From a virus, in IMG/VR virus record IMGVR_UViG_3300020222_000082, positions 1 through 37,495 of that record: 37,495 nt of DNA. The stretch is one strand, 5' to 3'. Below, piece after piece: positions 4,530 through 22,910 of this stretch. Positions within the stretch are counted from its first letter, which is position 1, and each line of letters opens with the position of its first letter. Made by a program: the position numbers and the translations under genes. The notes below the pieces were generated by a model that did no database searches, was not told the DNA's origin, and saw nothing but the letters and a program-made list of their open reading frames with translations.

Positions 4530-4751
4530 ATGGAACACAATATCGAGAACGTACTTGAGCGAACGCAATCACAACACGGATTTTGGCTCATCAATCACAA
4601 GAATATTATCCGAGCAGCTCTTATCACAGCAATCATGACGAAAGGAATTCAAGAAACAGTCGATCTTCTAAACGAAACTGACAGCCAATTCTCGAAAGAC
4701 ATTTATAAAATGATTGAGACTTACAACGATCAACAGAACGGAGAAGCGTAA
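4530..4751 (+). CDS. Small hypothetical protein, first gene of rightward operon
   Basis: A 73-aa protein, not recognised. It is predicted mainly alpha-helical, with a helical segment NIIRAALITAIMTKGIQETVDLL and a charged C-terminus. It has no Cys and no clear motif. GAAAGG upstream is a usable RBS. The next gene starts immediately after its stop, so the two are translated together. The conserved 28-bp control element shared with the replication operon suggests an early role. Function unknown. Confidence 0.75.
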   Translation: MEHNIENVLERTQSQHGFWLINHKNIIRAALITAIMTKGIQETVDLLNETDSQFSKDIYKMIETYNDQQNGEA

Positions 4752-5009
4752 ATGAGCGAAAAAGTGAAAATGCGCAGAGTCACGAACCTTAATACAAAAC
4801 GAATATCACATGAGATTGAGATTGAAAACCGATGGTATAAAATCGTTTCGGTAAAAACGCCGGCAGAATATACTGGAGAAAATCGACCGAATTTGCTAGA
4901 GCACCTCGAGAAAAACAACGTTATCGCGATCGCTCAGGTGAAACGGCCGAAAGGTAAAAAGATTTACACAGCATATAAATACCGTAATGGACTAATAAAA
5001 TTCGCATAA
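4752..5009 (+). CDS. Small basic hypothetical protein
   Basis: An 85-aa, Lys/Arg-rich protein, not recognised. It has alternating charged and hydrophobic residues suggesting beta strands (HEIEIENRWYKIVSV, then NVIAIAQVKRPKG and KIYTAYKYRNGLIKF). A small nucleic-acid-binding or inhibitor fold is possible but not shown. GGAGAAG before the ATG is a good RBS. It follows the previous stop directly and is followed by a strong RBS for the next gene. Confidence 0.75.
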   Translation: MSEKVKMRRVTNLNTKRISHEIEIENRWYKIVSVKTPAEYTGENRPNLLEHLEKNNVIAIAQVKRPKGKKIYTAYKYRNGLIKFA

Positions 5010-5022
5010 GGAGGTTAAAACC

Positions 5023-5178
5023 ATGCACGAAGATGAAAAACAAACATGCGCAAAAATAATAATCGGACTCACGCTATTTGCGGCAATTGCTCTTGCAGCA
5101 GTCGCAATCCTGCAAGATCCGCAAGGCACGATCCAAGCTTTAACAACAACTCACTGTGACGCTAGGCGTTGCTACTAA
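5023..5178 (+). CDS. Small single-pass membrane protein
   Basis: A 51-aa protein beginning MHEDEKQTCAKIIIGL. An acidic N-terminus is followed by one hydrophobic segment (IIIGLTLFAAIALAAVAIL, about residues 12-30). The polar tail has two Cys (THCDARRCY). The RBS AAGGAGG is excellent. It has no recognised family. An early phage membrane peptide could act on the host envelope or in superinfection exclusion, but this is a guess from shape alone. Confidence 0.7.
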   Translation: MHEDEKQTCAKIIIGLTLFAAIALAAVAILQDPQGTIQALTTTHCDARRCY

Positions 5179-5195
5179 ACAAGGAGGGTAATCCC

Positions 5196-5285
5196 ATGAA
5201 GATCAACGTAAAATTCGACGAAACAACAACAATTTTTCTGCCGAGCCTATGGCCAAGCGATAAAGTAGTCCTGGAGGCAATCTAA
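5196..5285 (+). CDS. Very short hypothetical protein (29 aa)
   Basis: MKINVKFDETTTIFLPSLWP and nine more residues. It is supported mainly by a near-perfect RBS (AAGGAGGG, seven bases before ATG) and by tight packing: its stop abuts the ATG of the next gene and overlaps that gene's RBS region. It could be a genuine micropeptide or a translational-coupling leader for the next gene. Confidence 0.55.
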   Translation: MKINVKFDETTTIFLPSLWPSDKVVLEAI

Positions 5286-5534
5286 ATGTTTAAGAAGTTC
5301 CATAAAGTACCAGAGTTTAATCATGTGCAACGTAATCAACAAAACGCGCTACGATACATCAGAGAGCTCTCAGATGAAGAATGGAAGCGTTTTAAGCGAG
5401 CTGCTGAGTCTTACCGCAAAAGCGACAAGATCCTAAATGGCGACGACGATGACGATATCACACACCTAGCGGCTGGAGACAGTTTTATCGAAACACCTCC
5501 GGCAAATATCCCACCAGCAGCAATTGACGAGTAA
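5286..5534 (+). CDS. Small hypothetical protein, last of rightward operon
   Basis: An 82-aa protein, not recognised. The N-terminal half is basic and helical (LRYIRELSDEEWKRFKRAAESYRKS). The middle has an acidic run (GDDDDDI) and the C-terminus is proline-rich and probably disordered. RBS GGAGG lies before the ATG. Two intrinsic terminators follow at 5543 and 5603, marking the operon end. Confidence 0.75.
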   Translation: MFKKFHKVPEFNHVQRNQQNALRYIRELSDEEWKRFKRAAESYRKSDKILNGDDDDDITHLAAGDSFIETPPANIPPAAIDE

Positions 5535-5542
5535 AATAAAAG

Positions 5543-5588
5543 AAGCACCCTCTGTTAAGCTATGACGACGAGGGTGCTTTTTATTTTG
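5543..5588. terminator. Bidirectional intrinsic terminator
   Basis: AAGCACCCTC (5543-5552) pairs perfectly with GAGGGTGCTT (5570-5579) around a 17-base loop. Rightward it is followed by TTTTATTTTG. Leftward the stem is followed by CTTTTATTTT, so it can also stop leftward transcripts that read through the origin from the primase-helicase gene. Confidence 0.85.
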
Positions 5589-5602
5589 TTCAAAGTTTTT
5601 GC

Positions 5603-5629
5603 CTCAAGCGTCATGCTCTTGAGCTTTTT
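5603..5629 (+). terminator. Second, weaker rightward terminator
   Basis: CTCAAG (5603-5608) pairs with CTTGAG (5618-5623), 9-base loop, then CTTTTTC. It lies 24 bases after the main stem and probably acts as backup. Confidence 0.5.
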
Positions 5630-5752
5630 CGTTCAAACAAATATAATTACATGTTTAATTTTCGAGGGTAATTCCCTGTTAAAGAACTAGCTTACATTTC
5701 GATTCTATCACAAGCAATTTCCTGCCGTACAAACCCAGAAAAATCGCGTTTC

Positions 5753-6061
5753 TGCAACATTTTTCAACTTTTTCCCTATAAAGGGGTATATATAGGCGTA
5801 TTAGACGCGTATATATACCCCTAAATCCCTCTAATCTATATATTCCTATATATTATAAAGAAAAATGTTGCACTTGTTGCAGCAGTACGTTCCCACCGAT
5901 GTTATTTAACGCTTGGTAAGTGCAACATTTTGTGTTTTTCATGTTGCAGCAACTGTTGCACTTTACTGCAACATGTGGTGCAACACTTTTTCGCCTCGTG
6001 CAACATGCGCCAGATCAAGAGTGCAACACTCCTGCAACACGAAAAAAGCGCAACTGTTGCA
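5753..6061. other. Probable replication origin: iteron array
   Basis: This is the largest noncoding gap (5535-6097). Twelve exact copies of TGCAACA or its complement start at 5753, 5866, 5875, 5921, 5942, 5954, 5967, 5979, 5999, 6022, 6033 and 6055, with two further GCAAC cores. Fewer than 0.1 copies are expected by chance in 309 bp. Both orientations occur with irregular spacing. One pair forms GCAACTGTTGC (6050-6060). A very A+T-rich stretch and a long palindrome lie at 5770-5865. The gap separates convergent operons and adjoins the primase-helicase gene. Together these features suit an origin with iterons and a melting region. Confidence 0.7.
5782..5822. repeat. 41-bp near-perfect palindrome in the origin region
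   Basis: AGGGGTATATATA (5782-5794) and its exact complement (5810-5822) form 13-bp arms. GCGT/ACGC (5796-5799 with 5805-5808) extends the stem after one G/G mismatch, leaving a 5-base loop ATTAG. There is no T-run, so it is not a terminator. In single-stranded form it would be a strong hairpin. It could be a primase start site, an initiator site or a melting element. Confidence 0.8.
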
Positions 6062-6097
6062 CTAACAATTGCGCCTTTTTTGCCTCACGCTTTTTAA

Positions 6098-8506
6098 CTA
6101 AATATCGATCAACGTAAATGCTGTTTGGCTGCCATACCCAACACCAAAACGTAATCGCCCGCCATCACCCCTCGTATGACGTTCCCAGCCTTCTAACCCA
6201 TGAAGAGCCTGCCTAATTTGCGCCGCTTTCGCCGGGTGCATACCACGCAAATCGCCACCAAGCACCTCGACCCAAATCTCAAGAACACAGACTTTATCGC
6301 GTTTAACTTTTCCGAGTTCTTCGATATCTTCTTCAGAATCCATCGCGTTTGCGATATAGTGTTTTCGCTCGCTTGGGCTTTTCTTGTACCAGTCATGAGT
6401 AATCGGAATCTTAACGAATTCTTCAATCAAACCAAGAACATCGTCGGTTTCAGTGTGAAGAGATTGTTGCTTAAGCGCAAGAGCGTTTTCAGACGTATTA
6501 AGCGCAAGGCTTTCACCCTTCTTATAAAGATGAAGTGCCTCGGCCCAGATCTGATCTCGATCTTCATCTTTCATATTCCACGGTTTAAGCTTTCCTCCTT
6601 CTTTTGCGCACTCAACAGGCCAAAATCGTCGGTTGCCGGTGCGATCGCGAAGGAATTCATGCTCGTTCGTCGTACCCCAGAACACACATTGACGGAAGTG
6701 CGTCTCAGTGTTTCTTGCGTACGCTGCGCGGAATGAGTCCGCAGTCTTCGAAACGAATTGCTTCACGGCGTCAATATCTGCTTTTTTAGTCGCAGACATT
6801 TCACCGAGCTCGATGATCCAGTTTCCTTGTAGAGCTTCATACGCGTCTTTACCTTGTACGCTATCGAGTGAGTTGCTGAACCAAGGACCCCCGAGCTTTT
6901 CTGCGAGGAGTGTTTTGCCGATTCCCTGTTTACCCAATGTCACGAGAACGTTATCGAATTTGACTCCGGGTTTCATGATCCGAGCGATCGCGGCTACGAG
7001 GAACTTGCGCGTAACTGTTCGCACATATTTCGAATCTTCAGCGCCTAAATAATCAACGAGAAGCGTCTCGACGCGTTCCACGCCGTCCCATTCAAGCGTT
7101 TTCAAGTAATCGCGCACAGGGTGAAAGCGTTTCGCCTCAGAGGCTCTTAGAAGTGCGTCCTGGATCATATCCTTGCCGCGTTGGTTGTATTTCATTTCAA
7201 GATATACGCGCAACCCCGCGTCGTCTGAATCAGTCCAGTAGCAGCGATCTGGTGTAAGCTTGCGCCACGGAAGATCTTTCATAAGAATACGTTTGCCGGC
7301 GAACTCATCGATTGCGACTGATCCTTTGAGCGCGACGTCATTTTCCATAATGATTTTCAGGTTTCTAGCTGTGCGCGTTGGAACTCCAGAGCGATCAACT
7401 TCGAGACGCGCGAACCACGCCATGTCGTCCTCAGTCTCTTCGGTTTTGGTTCCTGTTACCTTTTCAAAATCTGAGCTTGCTTCACCAAGGTGCGTTTTCG
7501 TGAGTTCGATCTTGACGTTTTTATCGTTGCGAGCAAAATCGCTCATCGCCTTAAAGCTTTGCAGCTTATTGACGGGCGTCTCAGGATTCGAATCAACATC
7601 AAGCTCGCCGAAGCGGTGAAGTCGCACGAGGTCGAATGCGTTGACAAGTTTTCCACCCGCTGGATCCGTTGCGTGGTTTGAATACGCAAAAAGCTCGTCG
7701 TCATAAACTACGAGGCCGCCGGTTGTGTGCCCACCTAAAAACGTATAACGCCCGTTTCCTTCATCGCGGTACTCGTCAGTTAAAAACTCCGCGATCGCTT
7801 CAGGAATTGTGTAGACTTTATTGAATGCGCCAATGAGCCCAGGTTTATCGAGTGGATTCCCTTGTGTTTTTTCCTGTCGCTTTACGTAGTTTTCGCCAAC
7901 AACAGGCCATTCACTTACGTCCTGCCAATCTTTATAGCGCGAGAGCACATCTTCAGGTTGAACGAATTTGCCTTCGTGATGAGCAAAATAAGGCTCAGCG
8001 TCAATGCTCGCGCTTGGCCAATACATCAAGCGTGTGTCTTGGTAACTGGTCGGGTCGAACTGCTCGATTCCTAAATCTTCAGCGAGTTTTAGCGCGATTG
8101 GTACATACTCATCAGGTGTAACCTCGCGGGCAAGTGGAATCACAACTCGATAGCGTGGCGCTGTCGCTTGGTGCGAGTGTGTCGAATATACGACGTTTTC
8201 ATAATCAGTAATGAGCTCAAGTCGATCGAGCAGCGTATCGGTCGCACTGTCGGCGTCAAGCGTCACGAGTGATCGCGACACGCAGGCACCACGAACGCGG
8301 CGCCCGCCTTTTAGATATCCACCAACAAAACCACCGACGTCTTTGATCTCGTCTTTTTGGTTTTTCGGCATGTTTATGTAATCATGAACGGTCTCTTTCG
8401 TTCTGATCGGCTCACTCAACTTGCCGATAAAATCACTCCACGACAGTTGTTGATTTCGCCACTTCACGCTTTTGCGTGAGCTTCCAACGGCGATGTTTAT
8501 CATCAT
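6098..8506 (-). CDS. Primase-helicase, VirE/VapE type (primase-polymerase N-terminus)
   Basis: This 802-aa protein primes and unwinds phage DNA. The N-terminal part resembles archaeo-eukaryotic primase-polymerases: TLDADS (D84, D86), YSTHSH (H110/H112), APRYR, then DTRLMYWPS near 157-165. The C-terminal part is a VirE-type AAA+/SF3-like helicase. Walker A is GKQGIGKT (about 525-532) and Walker B is WIIELGEM (about 563-570). Further motifs are CVFWGTTN and NRRFWPV. ATG at 8506 has the RBS GGAGGGAG, inside the sequence ATCCGTGGAGG that is complementary to the candidate RNA at 4318. It is the last gene of the replication operon, beside the iteron origin, so it is the best candidate replication initiator or helicase. 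Confidence 0.93.
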   Translation of the reverse strand: MMINIAVGSSRKSVKWRNQQLSWSDFIGKLSEPIRTKETVHDYINMPKNQKDEIKDVGGFVGGYLKGGRRVRGACVSRSLVTLDADSATDTLLDRLELITDYENVVYSTHSHQATAPRYRVVIPLAREVTPDEYVPIALKLAEDLGIEQFDPTSYQDTRLMYWPSASIDAEPYFAHHEGKFVQPEDVLSRYKDWQDVSEWPVVGENYVKRQEKTQGNPLDKPGLIGAFNKVYTIPEAIAEFLTDEYRDEGNGRYTFLGGHTTGGLVVYDDELFAYSNHATDPAGGKLVNAFDLVRLHRFGELDVDSNPETPVNKLQSFKAMSDFARNDKNVKIELTKTHLGEASSDFEKVTGTKTEETEDDMAWFARLEVDRSGVPTRTARNLKIIMENDVALKGSVAIDEFAGKRILMKDLPWRKLTPDRCYWTDSDDAGLRVYLEMKYNQRGKDMIQDALLRASEAKRFHPVRDYLKTLEWDGVERVETLLVDYLGAEDSKYVRTVTRKFLVAAIARIMKPGVKFDNVLVTLGKQGIGKTLLAEKLGGPWFSNSLDSVQGKDAYEALQGNWIIELGEMSATKKADIDAVKQFVSKTADSFRAAYARNTETHFRQCVFWGTTNEHEFLRDRTGNRRFWPVECAKEGGKLKPWNMKDEDRDQIWAEALHLYKKGESLALNTSENALALKQQSLHTETDDVLGLIEEFVKIPITHDWYKKSPSERKHYIANAMDSEEDIEELGKVKRDKVCVLEIWVEVLGGDLRGMHPAKAAQIRQALHGLEGWERHTRGDGGRLRFGVGYGSQTAFTLIDI

Positions 8507-13859: not shown

Positions 13860-13896
13860 TATAATAAAAACTCACGCGCTAGAGCTGCGCGTGAGT
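13860..13896 (-). terminator. Terminator of the XRE/nucleotide operon, overlapping the last codons
   Basis: ACTCACGCGC (13870-13879) pairs perfectly with GCGCGTGAGT (13887-13896), 7-base loop. On the minus strand TTTTTATTAT follows. The right arm and loop lie inside the end of the dCMP deaminase gene. It separates this operon from promoter B. Confidence 0.88.
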
Positions 13897-14298
13897 GATT
13901 CCTGCTTTTGTGAGTAGATCAAGAGGTGATTCGTCTCGATATATCTCTCTGTAATAGAGTTCTGATATACCCGATTGAATTATCATCTTTGCACATTCGA
14001 AGCAAGGTGAGTGTGTTATCACGAGAATCGTGTCATTTGTCGAGATTCCGTTTTTTGCTGCGAACAATATTGCGTTTGCCTCTGCGTGAACGACCTCAGG
14101 CTTTGTAACTTTCAACGAATCATCGAGATGATCTTCGCACGTGTTATCAAACCCGGTTGGAGTTCCGTTATATCCGATTGAAACGATCCGATCGTCTTTC
14201 GTTATAACAGCACCAACCTTAAGGCGTTCTGCGTGGCTGAGGCTTGAATAAACCTCAGCAGCACGCATGTGCGCGTTAAGCTTCTTCAAAGAGCTCAT
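13879..14298 (-). CDS. dCMP deaminase (deoxycytidylate deaminase)
   Basis: A 139-aa zinc enzyme that converts dCMP to dUMP. The zinc site is visible: HAEAN (H71, E73 as proton shuttle) and PCFEC (C99, C102). GAVITKDDRIVSIGYNGTP is the usual substrate-side strand. Length is normal. Last gene of its operon, overlapping the MazG-like gene by 23 bp. With the neighbouring hydroxymethylase-like enzyme, kinase and pyrophosphohydrolase it resembles the T4 dCMP/dCTP diversion pathway, supplying dUMP while cytosine nucleotides are altered. Confidence 0.93.
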   Translation of the reverse strand: MSSLKKLNAHMRAAEVYSSLSHAERLKVGAVITKDDRIVSIGYNGTPTGFDNTCEDHLDDSLKVTKPEVVHAEANAILFAAKNGISTNDTILVITHSPCFECAKMIIQSGISELYYREIYRDESPLDLLTKAGITHAQL

Positions 14299-14659
14299 CT
14301 AAAACCCCGTGATTGTCTGAATGATCTGGACCAGTCCAACCTGCAGGTTTAATCACGTCATAACCACCTGATTGCTCACGACCAGGCTTGACGCCACGCT
14401 CTTTGCTCATATTCGCGCGAACAACTTCGTCCCACGCCTTTTGCGGATCGACGCCGGCAAGATAAAGATTTCCAAGCGCGATCACGATTATATCAACATG
14501 ACCATCGACCCACTCTTCAGGATTCTTTTCTTCGATTGCCTTTTGAATTTCGTGAAACTCTTCACTCAGAAGATCATTTCGAAACTGCATTTTCTCTTCT
14601 GTGAAAGGTTCTTTGTCAAATTCGAATTTTTTCTGGAATCGCTCGTTATCTTCAATCAT
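14276..14659 (-). CDS. MazG-like nucleoside triphosphate pyrophosphohydrolase
   Basis: A 127-aa all-alpha NTP pyrophosphatase. The metal-binding helices show SEEFHE (E33, E34, E37) and VDGHVD (D52, D56), followed by the family's ALGNLYLAGVDPQKAWDEVV segment. It would convert a dNTP to dNMP and pyrophosphate. In this operon a dCTP-hydrolysing role (like T4 gp56 in function) is attractive, because it would both remove dCTP and supply dCMP. Substrate cannot be read from the sequence. The gene overlaps both neighbours by a few bases. Confidence 0.88.
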   Translation of the reverse strand: MIEDNERFQKKFEFDKEPFTEEKMQFRNDLLSEEFHEIQKAIEEKNPEEWVDGHVDIIVIALGNLYLAGVDPQKAWDEVVRANMSKERGVKPGREQSGGYDVIKPAGWTGPDHSDNHGVLDELFEEA

Positions 14660-15165
14660 CGTGTAATCTCCTCTACAAATTCATTCATATTTACTTTATT
14701 AAAATCGTACCGGATCCAATTCAGTGTTGTTTTACCAAGATATCTTTCATACTCATCAACAATTGGCTGCATGTCATCGAACATCTCCGGTCGCAGCTTC
14801 ATATTTTCTTTATGGTTCGCAATAACATTTTCGTTTTCGCAATAGATGTATGCAACATCGTTAATGTCGCACGCTTGAAGCATAAACTCCATGAATTCAT
14901 CAGCTTCAAAAAACTTCGATCCACCACGAAACGCATTTGCATATACATTTTCAGAAACGGCCCAGCGATCAATAATCACGTCCTGGTAATCCATTAGACG
15001 CCCCGCAGCTGATATCATGACTTTGTGATATTGATCAATTGCCCATTCTTTTTTCCATGATCCGTGCAGCAAATGGCCTTTTGTCTTTTCAAGAAGCGCG
15101 TTTGCGAGTGTGCTTTTGCCTGTTCCATCAGCACCTTCAAGAACGTAAAGTCTAGTCGTTTTCAC
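14656..15165 (-). CDS. P-loop nucleotide kinase (thymidylate kinase-like)
   Basis: This 169-aa kinase has a Walker A GADGTGKST (11-19) and the DR motif IIDRWAVSENVY (D66, R67) typical of thymidylate and deoxynucleoside kinases. The lid region is short. It would phosphorylate a deoxynucleoside or its monophosphate. Next to the dCMP-hydroxymethylase-like gene, a job analogous to T4 gp1 (phosphorylating hydroxymethyl-dCMP) is plausible but inferred. Overlaps with both neighbouring genes indicate one transcript. Confidence 0.85.
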   Translation of the reverse strand: MKTTRLYVLEGADGTGKSTLANALLEKTKGHLLHGSWKKEWAIDQYHKVMISAAGRLMDYQDVIIDRWAVSENVYANAFRGGSKFFEADEFMEFMLQACDINDVAYIYCENENVIANHKENMKLRPEMFDDMQPIVDEYERYLGKTTLNWIRYDFNKVNMNEFVEEITR

Positions 15166-15925
15166 GTCGAGATTCCTTCTTTAGCAATTCGATGAATTCG
15201 GGATATGTTTCAGCCGCCATCACTCGAAGCACACGTGATCCAATTTCATTATTGATATTCTTAGGCTCGAGCCATTCTTCAACCTTGTCATAGTGTTGTT
15301 CATACAAGTGCATAGAAGCGGCCGTCACGGTTAGATCGCCAAGTTCGTAGTCAATACCGCGCTCTTTCAATAGAAGCCGCACAGAGTTGGCTACAGCGCT
15401 AAACGTAGGCATGTCGTATGTTGCGCCAAGCACAATATCGTGACTTCGCATGTAAACGCTCAGATTGAGCTTCTTATCACGAACGAGAAACGTCATTCCA
15501 GTCGTGCACGGCTTATCTTTCGAGTCACGTGGGTTTTCACGCCATATATTCAAATGTGCTTGGCGCGTATCTTCGTCGGCTTCGATCATGTCAACAATAT
15601 AACGATATTGATCAACTATTTTCGGGCCATACGCACCTGATAGAAAGATTCCGTCATCACTGAAACGCTCATACGATTTCATCGTTTTAGTTAGATCAGC
15701 GAGTCGATTCGAACCACCAGCGACCCATGCCATTTCAGCGAACATAAAATCGTAATTGACTTTACGCTCTTCATTATCGATAAACGCCATCATAGGCACT
15801 GTATATTGCCCACCGATTTGTTCACGAACCTCTGCACCGCGCGGTGAAACTACGTGATCAGGATTGTCACGAAGCTCTTTAACTTTCGCAGCCCAAATCT
15901 CATTTGTTTGATTCATTTTTTCCAT
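15152..15925 (-). CDS. Thymidylate synthase family enzyme, likely dCMP hydroxymethylase
   Basis: This 257-aa protein has the TS fold signature: catalytic Cys in KPCTTG (C140), MRSHDIVLG (R160, D163), then ATYDM (D171) and SMHLYEQH (H206, Y208). In thymidylate synthases the position of D171 is an Asn (PFNIA) that reads the uracil base. In T4 dCMP hydroxymethylase it is Asp179, 31 residues after catalytic Cys148. Here the Cys-to-Asp distance is also 31. The segment LVRDKKLNLSVYMRSHD also closely resembles LIRDKKINAVVNMRSND as I recall it from T4 gp42. Hence dCMP, not dUMP, is the likely substrate. ATG 15925 has an AGGAGA RBS. Confidence 0.85.
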   Translation of the reverse strand: MEKMNQTNEIWAAKVKELRDNPDHVVSPRGAEVREQIGGQYTVPMMAFIDNEERKVNYDFMFAEMAWVAGGSNRLADLTKTMKSYERFSDDGIFLSGAYGPKIVDQYRYIVDMIEADEDTRQAHLNIWRENPRDSKDKPCTTGMTFLVRDKKLNLSVYMRSHDIVLGATYDMPTFSAVANSVRLLLKERGIDYELGDLTVTAASMHLYEQHYDKVEEWLEPKNINNEIGSRVLRVMAAETYPEFIELLKKESRREND

Positions 15926-18494: not shown

Positions 18495-18734
18495 CTAGTT
18501 TATTTTTTCAACAACGAGAGACGCGCCGCGTTCTTTTGAGCCGGTCGCGAGACTTGTAATAACTGAAAGGAACGCACCTCCTAGAAAGTAACCGCCGATC
18601 ACAGAAACATCAAGAGTGAAAAGATTAAACAATTCACTCGATCCGATTGCTAGCAAAATGGCTTGCGCACCAGTTTTGATCGCCCGCTCTGCGGTGTCGA
18701 TCCAAAATATTTTATCAGTTAGAAAAGTACTCAT
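18495..18734 (-). CDS. Holin, phage r1t type
   Basis: This 79-aa protein opens with FWIDTAERAIKTGAQAILLA, the signature of r1t-like holins (W-x-D-x-AER-x-x-K-T). Two hydrophobic segments, about 20-40 and 44-65, are followed by a charged C-terminus. It would make pores in the cytoplasmic membrane and release the endolysin encoded immediately upstream (18737-19774). Length and order fit the family. It is the last gene of the late operon. Confidence 0.93.
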   Translation of the reverse strand: MSTFLTDKIFWIDTAERAIKTGAQAILLAIGSSELFNLFTLDVSVIGGYFLGGAFLSVITSLATGSKERGASLVVEKIN

Positions 18735-18736
18735 AT

Positions 18737-19774
18737 TTATGCTCTCCTTAAATTAGAACTATTGATTGCAGCCGTAACAGCTCCGCCTCGTCCGATTACG
18801 ATACGATTACCATTGACTTGCATAACATCATATACCCCAGACGTTCCCAGGCGCGTCCCGTTGACATCAATCGGATTTGCTACTGTTACACGCTGGCCGA
18901 CAGCGAAGATCCCACCTTGTGGCGCGTTAGGAGTTGATCCGACGCCAAGTAAACGATTAACTTCACGCTGTACAGCCGCAGGATCGTGCCCAGCTCGACG
19001 CAAGTTGGCTTCACGTTGCGGGTTGTTTCCGAACGCTCCTGCGATAACTTGGCGCGCGATCGTAGTAATAGGCGCAGCAGATGGTTGTGTTGGTGCTGGT
19101 TTACCGATTCCATAACGAGCGTTGATGATTGACTGGATCGCGTCATAGTTATAACCCGCTCGTTCAAGATTTGTTTTACGTTGTGGCATATTACCCCAAG
19201 CACCACTCATCACCTCAGTCGCAATCGTGTCATTCGATTTTTGTGAAGGTTTTGGTGCAGGAGCTGGCGTCGATCCTGGATCAGTATCGTTTACACCATA
19301 CGTCGCAGAAACACCTTTCGTTTTGAACGTCGAGCCGATTACTGAGAATGTTCGAGTCGCACCGTGGTGAATAACGATTCGCTTAATTCCGCGAGGACGT
19401 CCTGCGGTAAAGAAAGGAGACAAATTATCTTTAATCTCATTGGCAACTCCTGAGACGTCACCTTTATAGTTATTCACGGCGTCAGCGTATCGCTGAAGCT
19501 GAGTGTAAAGCCAACCGGGGCAAGCTGTAGAAGAATGATCTTTGTGCCCAGAAAGCGTAAGGTTTACACCAACGCGAAGTGGTAGAAGTCCATTTCGCTC
19601 CGCGATATATCGAGATAACCGCACCGAGTTTTGAAACGTGTTATCGCTAACTTTCCAATCAGGTCCTAGTGTTGAGTTAACATGCTCAATCCCGATCGAG
19701 TCTTGATTTATAAGCCAGTTTCCGGCGTGGTAAGCGATGTTGCTTTCGTGCACGTATCTTTCATATTTACTCAT
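18737..19774 (-). CDS. Endolysin: circularly permuted amidase domain plus two Cpl-7 repeats
   Basis: This 345-aa N-acetylmuramoyl-L-alanine amidase has Amidase_2 (PGRP-like) parts in an unusual order. Residues 5-100 look like the second part of the domain: YVHESNIAYHAGN, QDSIGIEHVN, then GHKDHSSTACPG with zinc ligands H77 and C85. Residues 118-164 look like the normal first part: NLSPFFTAGRPRG, KRIVIHHGAT (zinc His 136/137), then GVSATYGVND. After a Pro-rich linker come two Cpl-7-type wall-binding repeats (about 182-222 and 238-278) and a C-terminal SH3-like stretch (about 285-345). All three zinc ligands are present but permuted. ATG overlaps a 27-codon upstream gene. Confidence 0.9.
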   Translation of the reverse strand: MSKYERYVHESNIAYHAGNWLINQDSIGIEHVNSTLGPDWKVSDNTFQNSVRLSRYIAERNGLLPLRVGVNLTLSGHKDHSSTACPGWLYTQLQRYADAVNNYKGDVSGVANEIKDNLSPFFTAGRPRGIKRIVIHHGATRTFSVIGSTFKTKGVSATYGVNDTDPGSTPAPAPKPSQKSNDTIATEVMSGAWGNMPQRKTNLERAGYNYDAIQSIINARYGIGKPAPTQPSAAPITTIARQVIAGAFGNNPQREANLRRAGHDPAAVQREVNRLLGVGSTPNAPQGGIFAVGQRVTVANPIDVNGTRLGTSGVYDVMQVNGNRIVIGRGGAVTAAINSSNLRRA

Positions 19775-19850
19775 CTTCGCCTTCTTCCTGGGTGCCCATT
19801 CCCATTGCCGCGATTTCTTCTTCTGGCATGTATTCTTGGTTTTCTGGCAT
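19767..19850 (-). CDS. Short acidic peptide coupled to the endolysin (27 aa)
   Basis: MPENQEYMPEEEIAAMGMGT plus seven acidic residues. RBS AAGGAGG, seven bases before the ATG, is the strongest in the lysis region. The stop (TAA at 19767) lies inside the endolysin gene, whose ATG overlaps as ATGAGTAA. It could be a real protein or a translational leader that loads ribosomes for the endolysin. Confidence 0.6.
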   Translation of the reverse strand: MPENQEYMPEEEIAAMGMGTQEEGEDE

Positions 19851-20858: not shown

Positions 20859-22910
20859 CTAAGCGATACGCTTCCACAAGTAGCCTACTAGAGTACGTTG
20901 AATGTTATTATGGGGCTGACCCCCGCCATTAGTTGAGGTGGCTCTCGACTCCGAACCGCTTAAAGTTACCTCTCCTCTGCCACCCGCTACTCCACCACCG
21001 CCAGTAGCCCACGTTGAATTATTGCCACGATAATAAACCATATTTCCATCTGTTTGTAAGACTAGTCGTCCCGCCCCTGAACCTCTAGGAGCACTCGTTC
21101 CATACTGAGTGTGGTCATGTGGTGCAAGTTGTTCCTCAGTAAGCGTATGTGTGTCTGCACCAATAATAGTTCCTGCTGCCACATTGAATGGTGAGCCAGA
21201 TACATCAGATTTACCGCCGAGAACTACGCCTTTTAGTGCTACCCAAGTACCACCATAAACAGTCCCAGGATTTCTACTATCAGTTTCATTCCAGTAAGTA
21301 GAGCCAACAGGGTGAGCTGCTAGAAATATAAAGTCTCCGTTTCGCTCACCTGAAGCGTCAAACTGATCGGCTTTTACGCCAATTCCATCTGGCCCCGTTG
21401 ATAGTTTAGCGAGTAATGTATCATCTGCGCGCCTGAATGTAATTAAATCTTTATTTTCTTCATTACTAGTTGCTGCAATTACGTTAAACGGAAGTTTTGG
21501 GCCAATTTCAAATCGATCGGGATTATTTGAAACGCGCCCGAATGAAACAGCGCGACCTGATGAATGAAAGTCCATCATGGTGAATGCGGTAGGAACAGCG
21601 ATTGGATATTGTGTCGTTGAGAAAAAGTCTGTTGCTTCAAGAACAAAGTCGTATGGGCTATCAACGTCAATTCCAGGAATAAGCATAACGTCGTCATTAA
21701 GATCAAGCGCGTACTCACCAAATGGACCTGTACCGGTTGGAGTTATCGGAATCTCGGTCCAAGTTGTCGCACTTCGCTTTTTATATTTAAGTTTAAACGA
21801 CGCAGTGTTTTCATTTCGAAGCGGCGCGATTAAACCACCTGGATAAATAACAACATGATCGCCGTCTTCGTCCCAAGCTCCAGCACTATCGGCGCGAGAA
21901 AAAGCCATAGTTACAAATGGATCAACATATTCTTCAACTTCAATCATTTCGTAAGTCAAGCCGTCTTGTGATCTTGCGCGAGAGTCAATTGCTATAAATC
22001 CAACGAAACGCAGCCCACCAATAGGAAGTAGCGGAGATGTTGCTGTTGATTGTTGGCCATCTGATAACCAATCTTCAAATAAGAATGTCGTGAAAGCGAG
22101 TGTGCTTCCGTATGCACCTTGCGCAGTCATAGAAAGCGCTAATTGTGATTTATTTTGAATGAAAAATGAAAAGTGATCTGCGACTTCCGGGTTTGCTTCT
22201 GTAATTGAATAATCGGTGATCGTCGGCTTAAATGTTGGCGTGTTAGGAATATTTGCGGTAAAACCTCTTGACTTCGTCCCGATAACATGCCCGCCTGATT
22301 TTGTTTGAACTGTAATTGTACCGGTTCCGCTAGTATGATTCGGACGTCTCGTCGCGATCGAATTCGGAATTGCCCAAACAACAGATGATCCGGCATTTTC
22401 AGCAATAACACCACTCGCGCCGTTAAAACTATACGTGACACGGTGCGTAAAGCTTCCACTCGCTCGCGGCAGACTGATTGTCGTATTTGTTCCAATCGTA
22501 ATAGTCTGAGCCATGCTTGGCGTCGTTGCGCGCGGGATTGTTGGAAGATTCCAAGAACCTGAAACTGAGCGATTTCCATAACTATAAAGCCAACCATTTA
22601 TATGCGCCCCGAATGCACCAGTTCCATCAGCATTGTGTTGAACTGTAACTGTGCCTGATCGAAGTTGCGTTGTACCAAAAATATTACTCCACGCGCCTCC
22701 AGGAATTCCCTGGTTGTGCACGTTACCGCCATCAATTCGAACTGCGTTCAAATACCATAAATCCCAACGAGCAATTGCAAGGCCGGCGCGCCACGAGATT
22801 GTTGACGTATTGTTCGCGATGTTTTGTGAGACGAGATTCCACTCAACATAAAAACGCGAGTTTTTACCCGCAGGTGCAGCCGTTTCAATTCGTCCACTTC
22901 GTGAAGACAT
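20859..22910 (-). CDS. Tail fibre / receptor-binding protein, DUF859-like
   Basis: A 683-aa structural protein. Residues about 1-130 are rich in Trp, Asn and Gly, with repeated beta strands like the DUF859 minor structural proteins of streptococcal phages. The middle contains more beta-rich repeats (NPDRFEIGPKLPFNV). The C-terminal 130 residues look like a tail-collar or tip domain: AAHPVGSTYWNETDSRNPGT, GGTWVALKG, then HTLTEEQLAPHDH and PHNNIQRTLVGYLWKR. Such C-termini form trimeric receptor-binding tips. Location just after the Tal gene supports a baseplate or fibre role. Confidence 0.85.
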   Translation of the reverse strand: MSSRSGRIETAAPAGKNSRFYVEWNLVSQNIANNTSTISWRAGLAIARWDLWYLNAVRIDGGNVHNQGIPGGAWSNIFGTTQLRSGTVTVQHNADGTGAFGAHINGWLYSYGNRSVSGSWNLPTIPRATTPSMAQTITIGTNTTISLPRASGSFTHRVTYSFNGASGVIAENAGSSVVWAIPNSIATRRPNHTSGTGTITVQTKSGGHVIGTKSRGFTANIPNTPTFKPTITDYSITEANPEVADHFSFFIQNKSQLALSMTAQGAYGSTLAFTTFLFEDWLSDGQQSTATSPLLPIGGLRFVGFIAIDSRARSQDGLTYEMIEVEEYVDPFVTMAFSRADSAGAWDEDGDHVVIYPGGLIAPLRNENTASFKLKYKKRSATTWTEIPITPTGTGPFGEYALDLNDDVMLIPGIDVDSPYDFVLEATDFFSTTQYPIAVPTAFTMMDFHSSGRAVSFGRVSNNPDRFEIGPKLPFNVIAATSNEENKDLITFRRADDTLLAKLSTGPDGIGVKADQFDASGERNGDFIFLAAHPVGSTYWNETDSRNPGTVYGGTWVALKGVVLGGKSDVSGSPFNVAAGTIIGADTHTLTEEQLAPHDHTQYGTSAPRGSGAGRLVLQTDGNMVYYRGNNSTWATGGGGVAGGRGEVTLSGSESRATSTNGGGQPHNNIQRTLVGYLWKRIA

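Follow-up and report, generated by a model that had tools for sequence, protein, structure and literature searches.

A predicted circular permutation of the Amidase_2 domain in the endolysin of a metagenome-type phage record

Introduction

Few catalytic domains are commoner in endolysins than Amidase_2, which is related to the peptidoglycan recognition proteins (PGRPs) of animals. IMG/VR virus record IMGVR_UViG_3300020222_000082, a single metagenome-type record of 37,495 nt (the whole of which is here called the window), carries a lysin gene in which the two halves of this domain appear in exchanged order. The locus raises the question of whether this is a natural and working circular permutant, the product of a faulty assembly, or the remnant of a former enzyme. 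The original prediction, made from the letters alone, had proposed a permuted domain with all three zinc ligands and the wall-binding repeats kept, and stated that no described natural permuted Amidase_2 lysin was known to its author. Our search of the open-access literature likewise found no description of a natural permuted Amidase_2.

Results

A portal gene and a terminase gene lie at the ends of the record, one at each, and by this gene content the record is a near-complete tailed phage opened between these two genes. The capsid is similar to those of Streptomyces phages. For the DNA polymerase and the tail protein, the resemblance is to phages infecting Streptococcus and gut Firmicutes. 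A domain of the lysin is shared with an Eggerthella phage (see below). A gut actinobacterium is a possible host, which is offered as a lead only. The tail protein at 20859–22910 has a DUF859 part joined to a Gp10_C-type end. The genome is coded on the minus strand apart from a short run of small plus-strand ORFs at 4530–5690, where the AT skew is reversed. Just beyond a VapE-like gene, in a gap free of genes of at least 100 aa (5780–6100), short repeats of the GTTGCAC/TGTTGCA type occur at 5861, 5866, 5933, 5949 and 6050 along with an 18 nt inverted repeat at 5782–5822; these are possibly replication-origin iterons or operators. Genes for a dCMP deaminase, a MazG-like pyrophosphohydrolase, a kinase and a thymidylate-synthase-like protein stand in a row at 13879–15925, with a possible role in the supply of thymidylate or in a modified base.

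The lysin gene (18737..19774, minus strand) is a single ORF of 345 aa with an ATG start. Its product reads, in order, as the C-half of Amidase_2, the N-half of Amidase_2, two CW_7 repeats and a C-terminal SH3-like domain. Directly 3′ lies a holin gene (18495..18734, minus strand; Pfam Phage_r1t_holin, 54.8 bits against a cut-off of 26.9). Upstream, an ORF of 27 aa (19767..19850, minus strand) has a strong Shine–Dalgarno sequence (AAAGGAGG), and its stop codon overlaps the lysin start codon, which suggests that the two are translationally coupled. As judged from its domains, the lysin with its two CW_7 repeats and C-terminal domain, together with the r1t-type holin downstream, is a complete lysis cassette. 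No second wall hydrolase was seen among the larger ORFs scanned on the contig, and 18737–19774 is the sole lysin gene found.

The wall-binding repeats are intact. Pfam CW_7 (PF08230) matches with 90.3 bits in two stretches, residues 182–219 (19118..19231, minus strand) and approximately 238–277 (18944..19063, minus strand), the second of which also aligned with PDB 4cvd and 5i8l; the repeats were thus kept, as had been proposed. Over 55 aa, the C-terminal domain (approximately residues 290–345; 18740..18907, minus strand) shares 71 % identity with part of a GH25 lysin from Eggerthella phage LE2-3. We read it as SH3-like, and it is apparently an unnamed wall-binding domain. The same domain occurs twice in the LE2-3 GH25 lysin (locus L114, 2371–3540) and once in another lysin (L115), to which a membrane segment is fused and which may include a CHAP-like part.

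Pfam Amidase_2 (PF01510) matches residues 6–87 of the lysin with 57 bits (E 3.3e-15, cut-off 26), and this match covers only positions 54–130 of the 131 in the profile, i.e. the second half of the domain. Segment 101–171 gave no match when searched alone against Pfam, and the N-terminal half alone matched PHROG only weakly (E 0.088). Because Pfam was blank for this segment, 17 unpermuted homologs supplied N-halves for a profile, which was run against a database made up of the lysin, every ORF of the window and 5000 shuffled versions of residues 88–181. The profile matched lysin residues 112–164 with 30.8 bits (E 5.5e-8); the next-best ORF of the window scored 9.9 bits and the best of the shuffles 8.1 bits. 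At these residues the N-half model is covered from 8 to 62 of 63 positions, and our own C-half model from 4 to 97 of 98 at residues 6–100 (84.6–84.8 bits), so that each half is present in a single, nearly complete copy. Across the whole contig there is one N-half and one C-half. A split gene with its N-half elsewhere was considered and ruled out, as no other N-half occurs in any frame of the contig.

The C-terminal part of the domain (residues 6–100; 19475..19759, minus strand) therefore stands first, with strand beta3 (YVHE), SIGIE, GHKD, TACPG and the final helix. The N-terminal part (residues 112–164; 19283..19441, minus strand) follows with NLSPFF..GR, IVIHH and SATYGV. Between the two profile matches, residues 101–111 (19442..19474, minus strand) form the junction, at which the natural C-terminal helix, extending to approximately residue 101, runs with hardly any linker into the natural N-terminal arm (GVANEIKDNLSPFF, from approximately residue 109). 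Alignment with relatives places the new ends in the turn between SATYGVND (156–163) and KYERYVHE (3–10), that is, at the beta2/beta3 hairpin; the unpermuted relative L062 reads SAHYGIGKNG-EIRAYVDENNTAWHAGNW across the turn that is cut in the lysin. Both parts thus occur once, in exchanged order relative to homologs and with the original ends joined. Since the order is reversed with respect to Amidase_2 homologs, the domain is classed as a permuted variant and not as a standard member of the family. Pfam, the N-half profile and the comparison with homologs all bear out the permuted order of the original prediction. Its residue limits (87 for the end of the C part, 118–164 for the N part) were right to within a few residues, except that the N-half starts earlier, near residue 110.

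The residues expected of an Amidase_2 active site are all present. H136, the first His of IVIHH (19367..19369, minus strand), is predicted to be the first zinc ligand and is His in 30 of 30 unpermuted N-halves. The second and third predicted ligands, H77 of GHKD (19544..19546, minus strand) and C85 of ACPG (19520..19522, minus strand), and the predicted catalytic Glu, E30 of SIGIE (19685..19687, minus strand), each stand at an invariant column among 27 C-half sequences. These roles we take to be the ones established for the Amidase_2 family. By sequence comparison the retention of all three zinc ligands is therefore confirmed. S156, conserved in the same 30 N-halves, is also kept, while residue 158 is Thr where 25 of the 30 homologs have His; Asn and Ser occur there too. 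The lysin scores 29.4 bits for its N-half and 84.6 bits for its C-half, within the range of unpermuted homologs outside model building (L136, 27.6/83.8; L119, 32.3/92.9; L125, 16.5/75.5), and so neither half looks decayed.

Homologs were sought in 50,697 phage records, in plasmids, in IMG/VR, in one genome scan and in roughly 1,590 whole-lysin genome searches. The original prediction had pointed to the unpermuted order among homologs as a check, and approximately 70 homolog ORFs with both halves, some from loci that repeat one gene, all have the N-half followed by the C-half. The lysin is the sole ORF with its N-half after its C-half among the loci from IMG/VR, annotated phages and bacterial genomes. 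A second permuted homolog was not found in IMG/VR, in the phage and plasmid collections or in the whole-lysin genome searches. Exact 8-mer scans of IMG/VR gave no close relatives with either the whole lysin or the C-half as query, and a degenerate C-half profile returned 20 viral and 16 genomic amidases, none of them permuted. Patterns for the permuted signature (CPG, 121–151 nt, IVIHH) hit 23 IMG/VR contigs, none with a permuted amidase. Only the normal order was found in genomes of Lactobacillales, of the class of Gemmiger, of the phylum of Loigolactobacillus and of a Coriobacteriia-like class, and the route through neighbouring genes (ssDNA-binding protein and tail protein) gave no usable relative lysin. 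One locus, L123, was raised as a candidate by a single match across residues 128–288, and its order turned out to be normal. In a bacterial lysin locus (L067) the amidase N-half and C-half lie in different reading frames, by frameshift or as a natural split. The closest amidase relatives of the lysin are only 41–49 % identical to it, thus a sparsely sequenced permuted clade could easily go unnoticed.

Residues 1–168 were modelled with AlphaFold from two alignments, one of 27 N and 5 C rows and one of 26 C rows alone. MAFFT placed few N and C pieces jointly on the permuted query, and phage-record rows were left out. The first alignment gave a model of moderate confidence (pLDDT 69.7, pTM 0.73) with strands at 26–32, 132–138 and 157–161 and helices at 44–60, 90–101 and 143–151, i.e. 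beta1–helix–beta2 in the N-half and beta–helix in the C-half as expected for the amidase fold; residues 1–14 (beta3) were disordered. The second gave pLDDT 66.7 and pTM 0.65, with residues 140–168 disordered. Fold searches with the models (Foldseek, VIA-align) returned no amidase and no strong match, but both programs depend on chain order, so the absent amidase match says little. From the end of the last helix (101) to beta1 (130) the chain runs for approximately 28 residues, a connection long enough to cross the domain and so to allow folding within one chain.

Discussion

The evidence from profiles, conserved columns and homologs makes it probable that 18737–19774 encodes a real phage endolysin with a circularly permuted zinc-dependent N-acetylmuramoyl-L-alanine amidase domain (Amidase_2). 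The absence of any relative with this order from the databases searched points to a rearrangement that is probably natural to the protein. The lysin shares with the Amidase_2 family (PF01510), which has the T7 lysozyme/PGRP fold, all conserved motifs, the predicted His/His/Cys ligands and the catalytic Glu. It differs in that its halves are swapped, its termini lie in the beta2/beta3 hairpin and its wall-binding part follows beta2. The PHROG 7698 endolysins, which match residues 6–277 with E 8.9e-51, have a similar architecture of Amidase_2 and CW_7, however the amidase of one of them, from Streptococcus phage Javan422 (L002), has its N-half before its C-half and is without the C-terminal domain of the permuted lysin.

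The permuted lysin is probably functional, and a plausible course of events can be set out. The chain would have been opened in the beta2/beta3 hairpin, so that it now starts at strand beta3, with the former C-terminal helix joined to the former N-terminal arm. On folding, beta1 and beta2 (residues 132–161) would return to their place against the C-half, so that H136 would come to lie with H77 and C85 and the three would bind one zinc ion beside E30. Once released by the holin, the enzyme would cleave the host wall at the MurNAc-L-Ala bond. Its CW_7 repeats and C-terminal domain would hang from beta2 and not from the final helix, and would keep it anchored to the wall.

Several other readings of the same gene deserve weight. 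The true phage lysin might be normal, with its blocks swapped in the contig by misassembly or chimera formation; the source is a single metagenome-type virus record, and the order is known from this one contig; the IMG/VR searches gave no second. A block swap would, however, require false joins at three places, and an assembler would need shared sequence at each. Between the junction windows the longest shared repeat is 8–9 nt, and none above 13 nt is shared with the remainder of the contig, as expected by chance (a value of 22 nt reflects one position counted in two overlapping windows). Every join is in frame, the first supplies the start codon, and no duplication or loss is seen at the level of residues. 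Given in-frame joins without shared repeats, a k-mer misassembly is unlikely, and we regard an artefact as quite improbable. Decay is hardly a better candidate, although the duplication route that could yield a permutant would also produce a remnant of two tandem amidase domains that had lost their outer halves, with no active site and a role in wall binding only, or none. The moderate confidence of the AlphaFold models would suit such a remnant. Yet the two halves make up one domain, no more and no less, none of the invariant residues has been lost, the degree of conservation is one also seen in normal homologs, and scanning of the contig revealed no other lysin; a dead remnant is thus unlikely.

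It is also conceivable that the C-half of one chain and the N-half of another form the active site in a domain-swapped dimer. Such a dimer would use the same residues and is compatible with the sequence. The connection of approximately 28 residues between the last helix and beta1 nevertheless suffices for folding within one chain, and we consider a swapped dimer very unlikely. A one-chain permuted amidase remains the preferred reading.

With regard to origin, duplication followed by trimming is the classical route to circular permutation and has been used to explain the natural permutations of swaposin and of DNA methyltransferases (PMC3320104). Those proteins have other folds, and duplicated intermediates are documented for the methyltransferases whereas none was found for the lysin. 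The lysin may have arisen by duplication plus trimming or by cut and paste. The tandem duplication with loss of the outer halves that had been proposed is consistent with natural ends joined almost without a seam; as no duplicated intermediate was found, however, this route is inferred. Among peptidoglycan hydrolases, permuted catalytic domains are established in the NlpC/P60 superfamily (YaeF/G6R, LRAT-like; PMC6403190; PMC10318531); these are papain-like cysteine enzymes, unrelated in fold and chemistry, in which permutation defines whole families.

On balance we lean towards the view that the lysin is an active enzyme and the first circular permutant from nature of the zinc amidase fold of Amidase_2/PGRP type, its chain being opened at the beta2/beta3 hairpin and its wall-binding domains re-attached at a different face. 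Linear domain searches detect just half of permuted enzymes such as this one. If the lysin is active, it shows that termini within the beta2/beta3 hairpin are compatible with the Amidase_2 fold, as is a different anchor point for the binding domains; the protein would then serve as a natural experiment on the order of folding and as a precedent for how lysins can be built.
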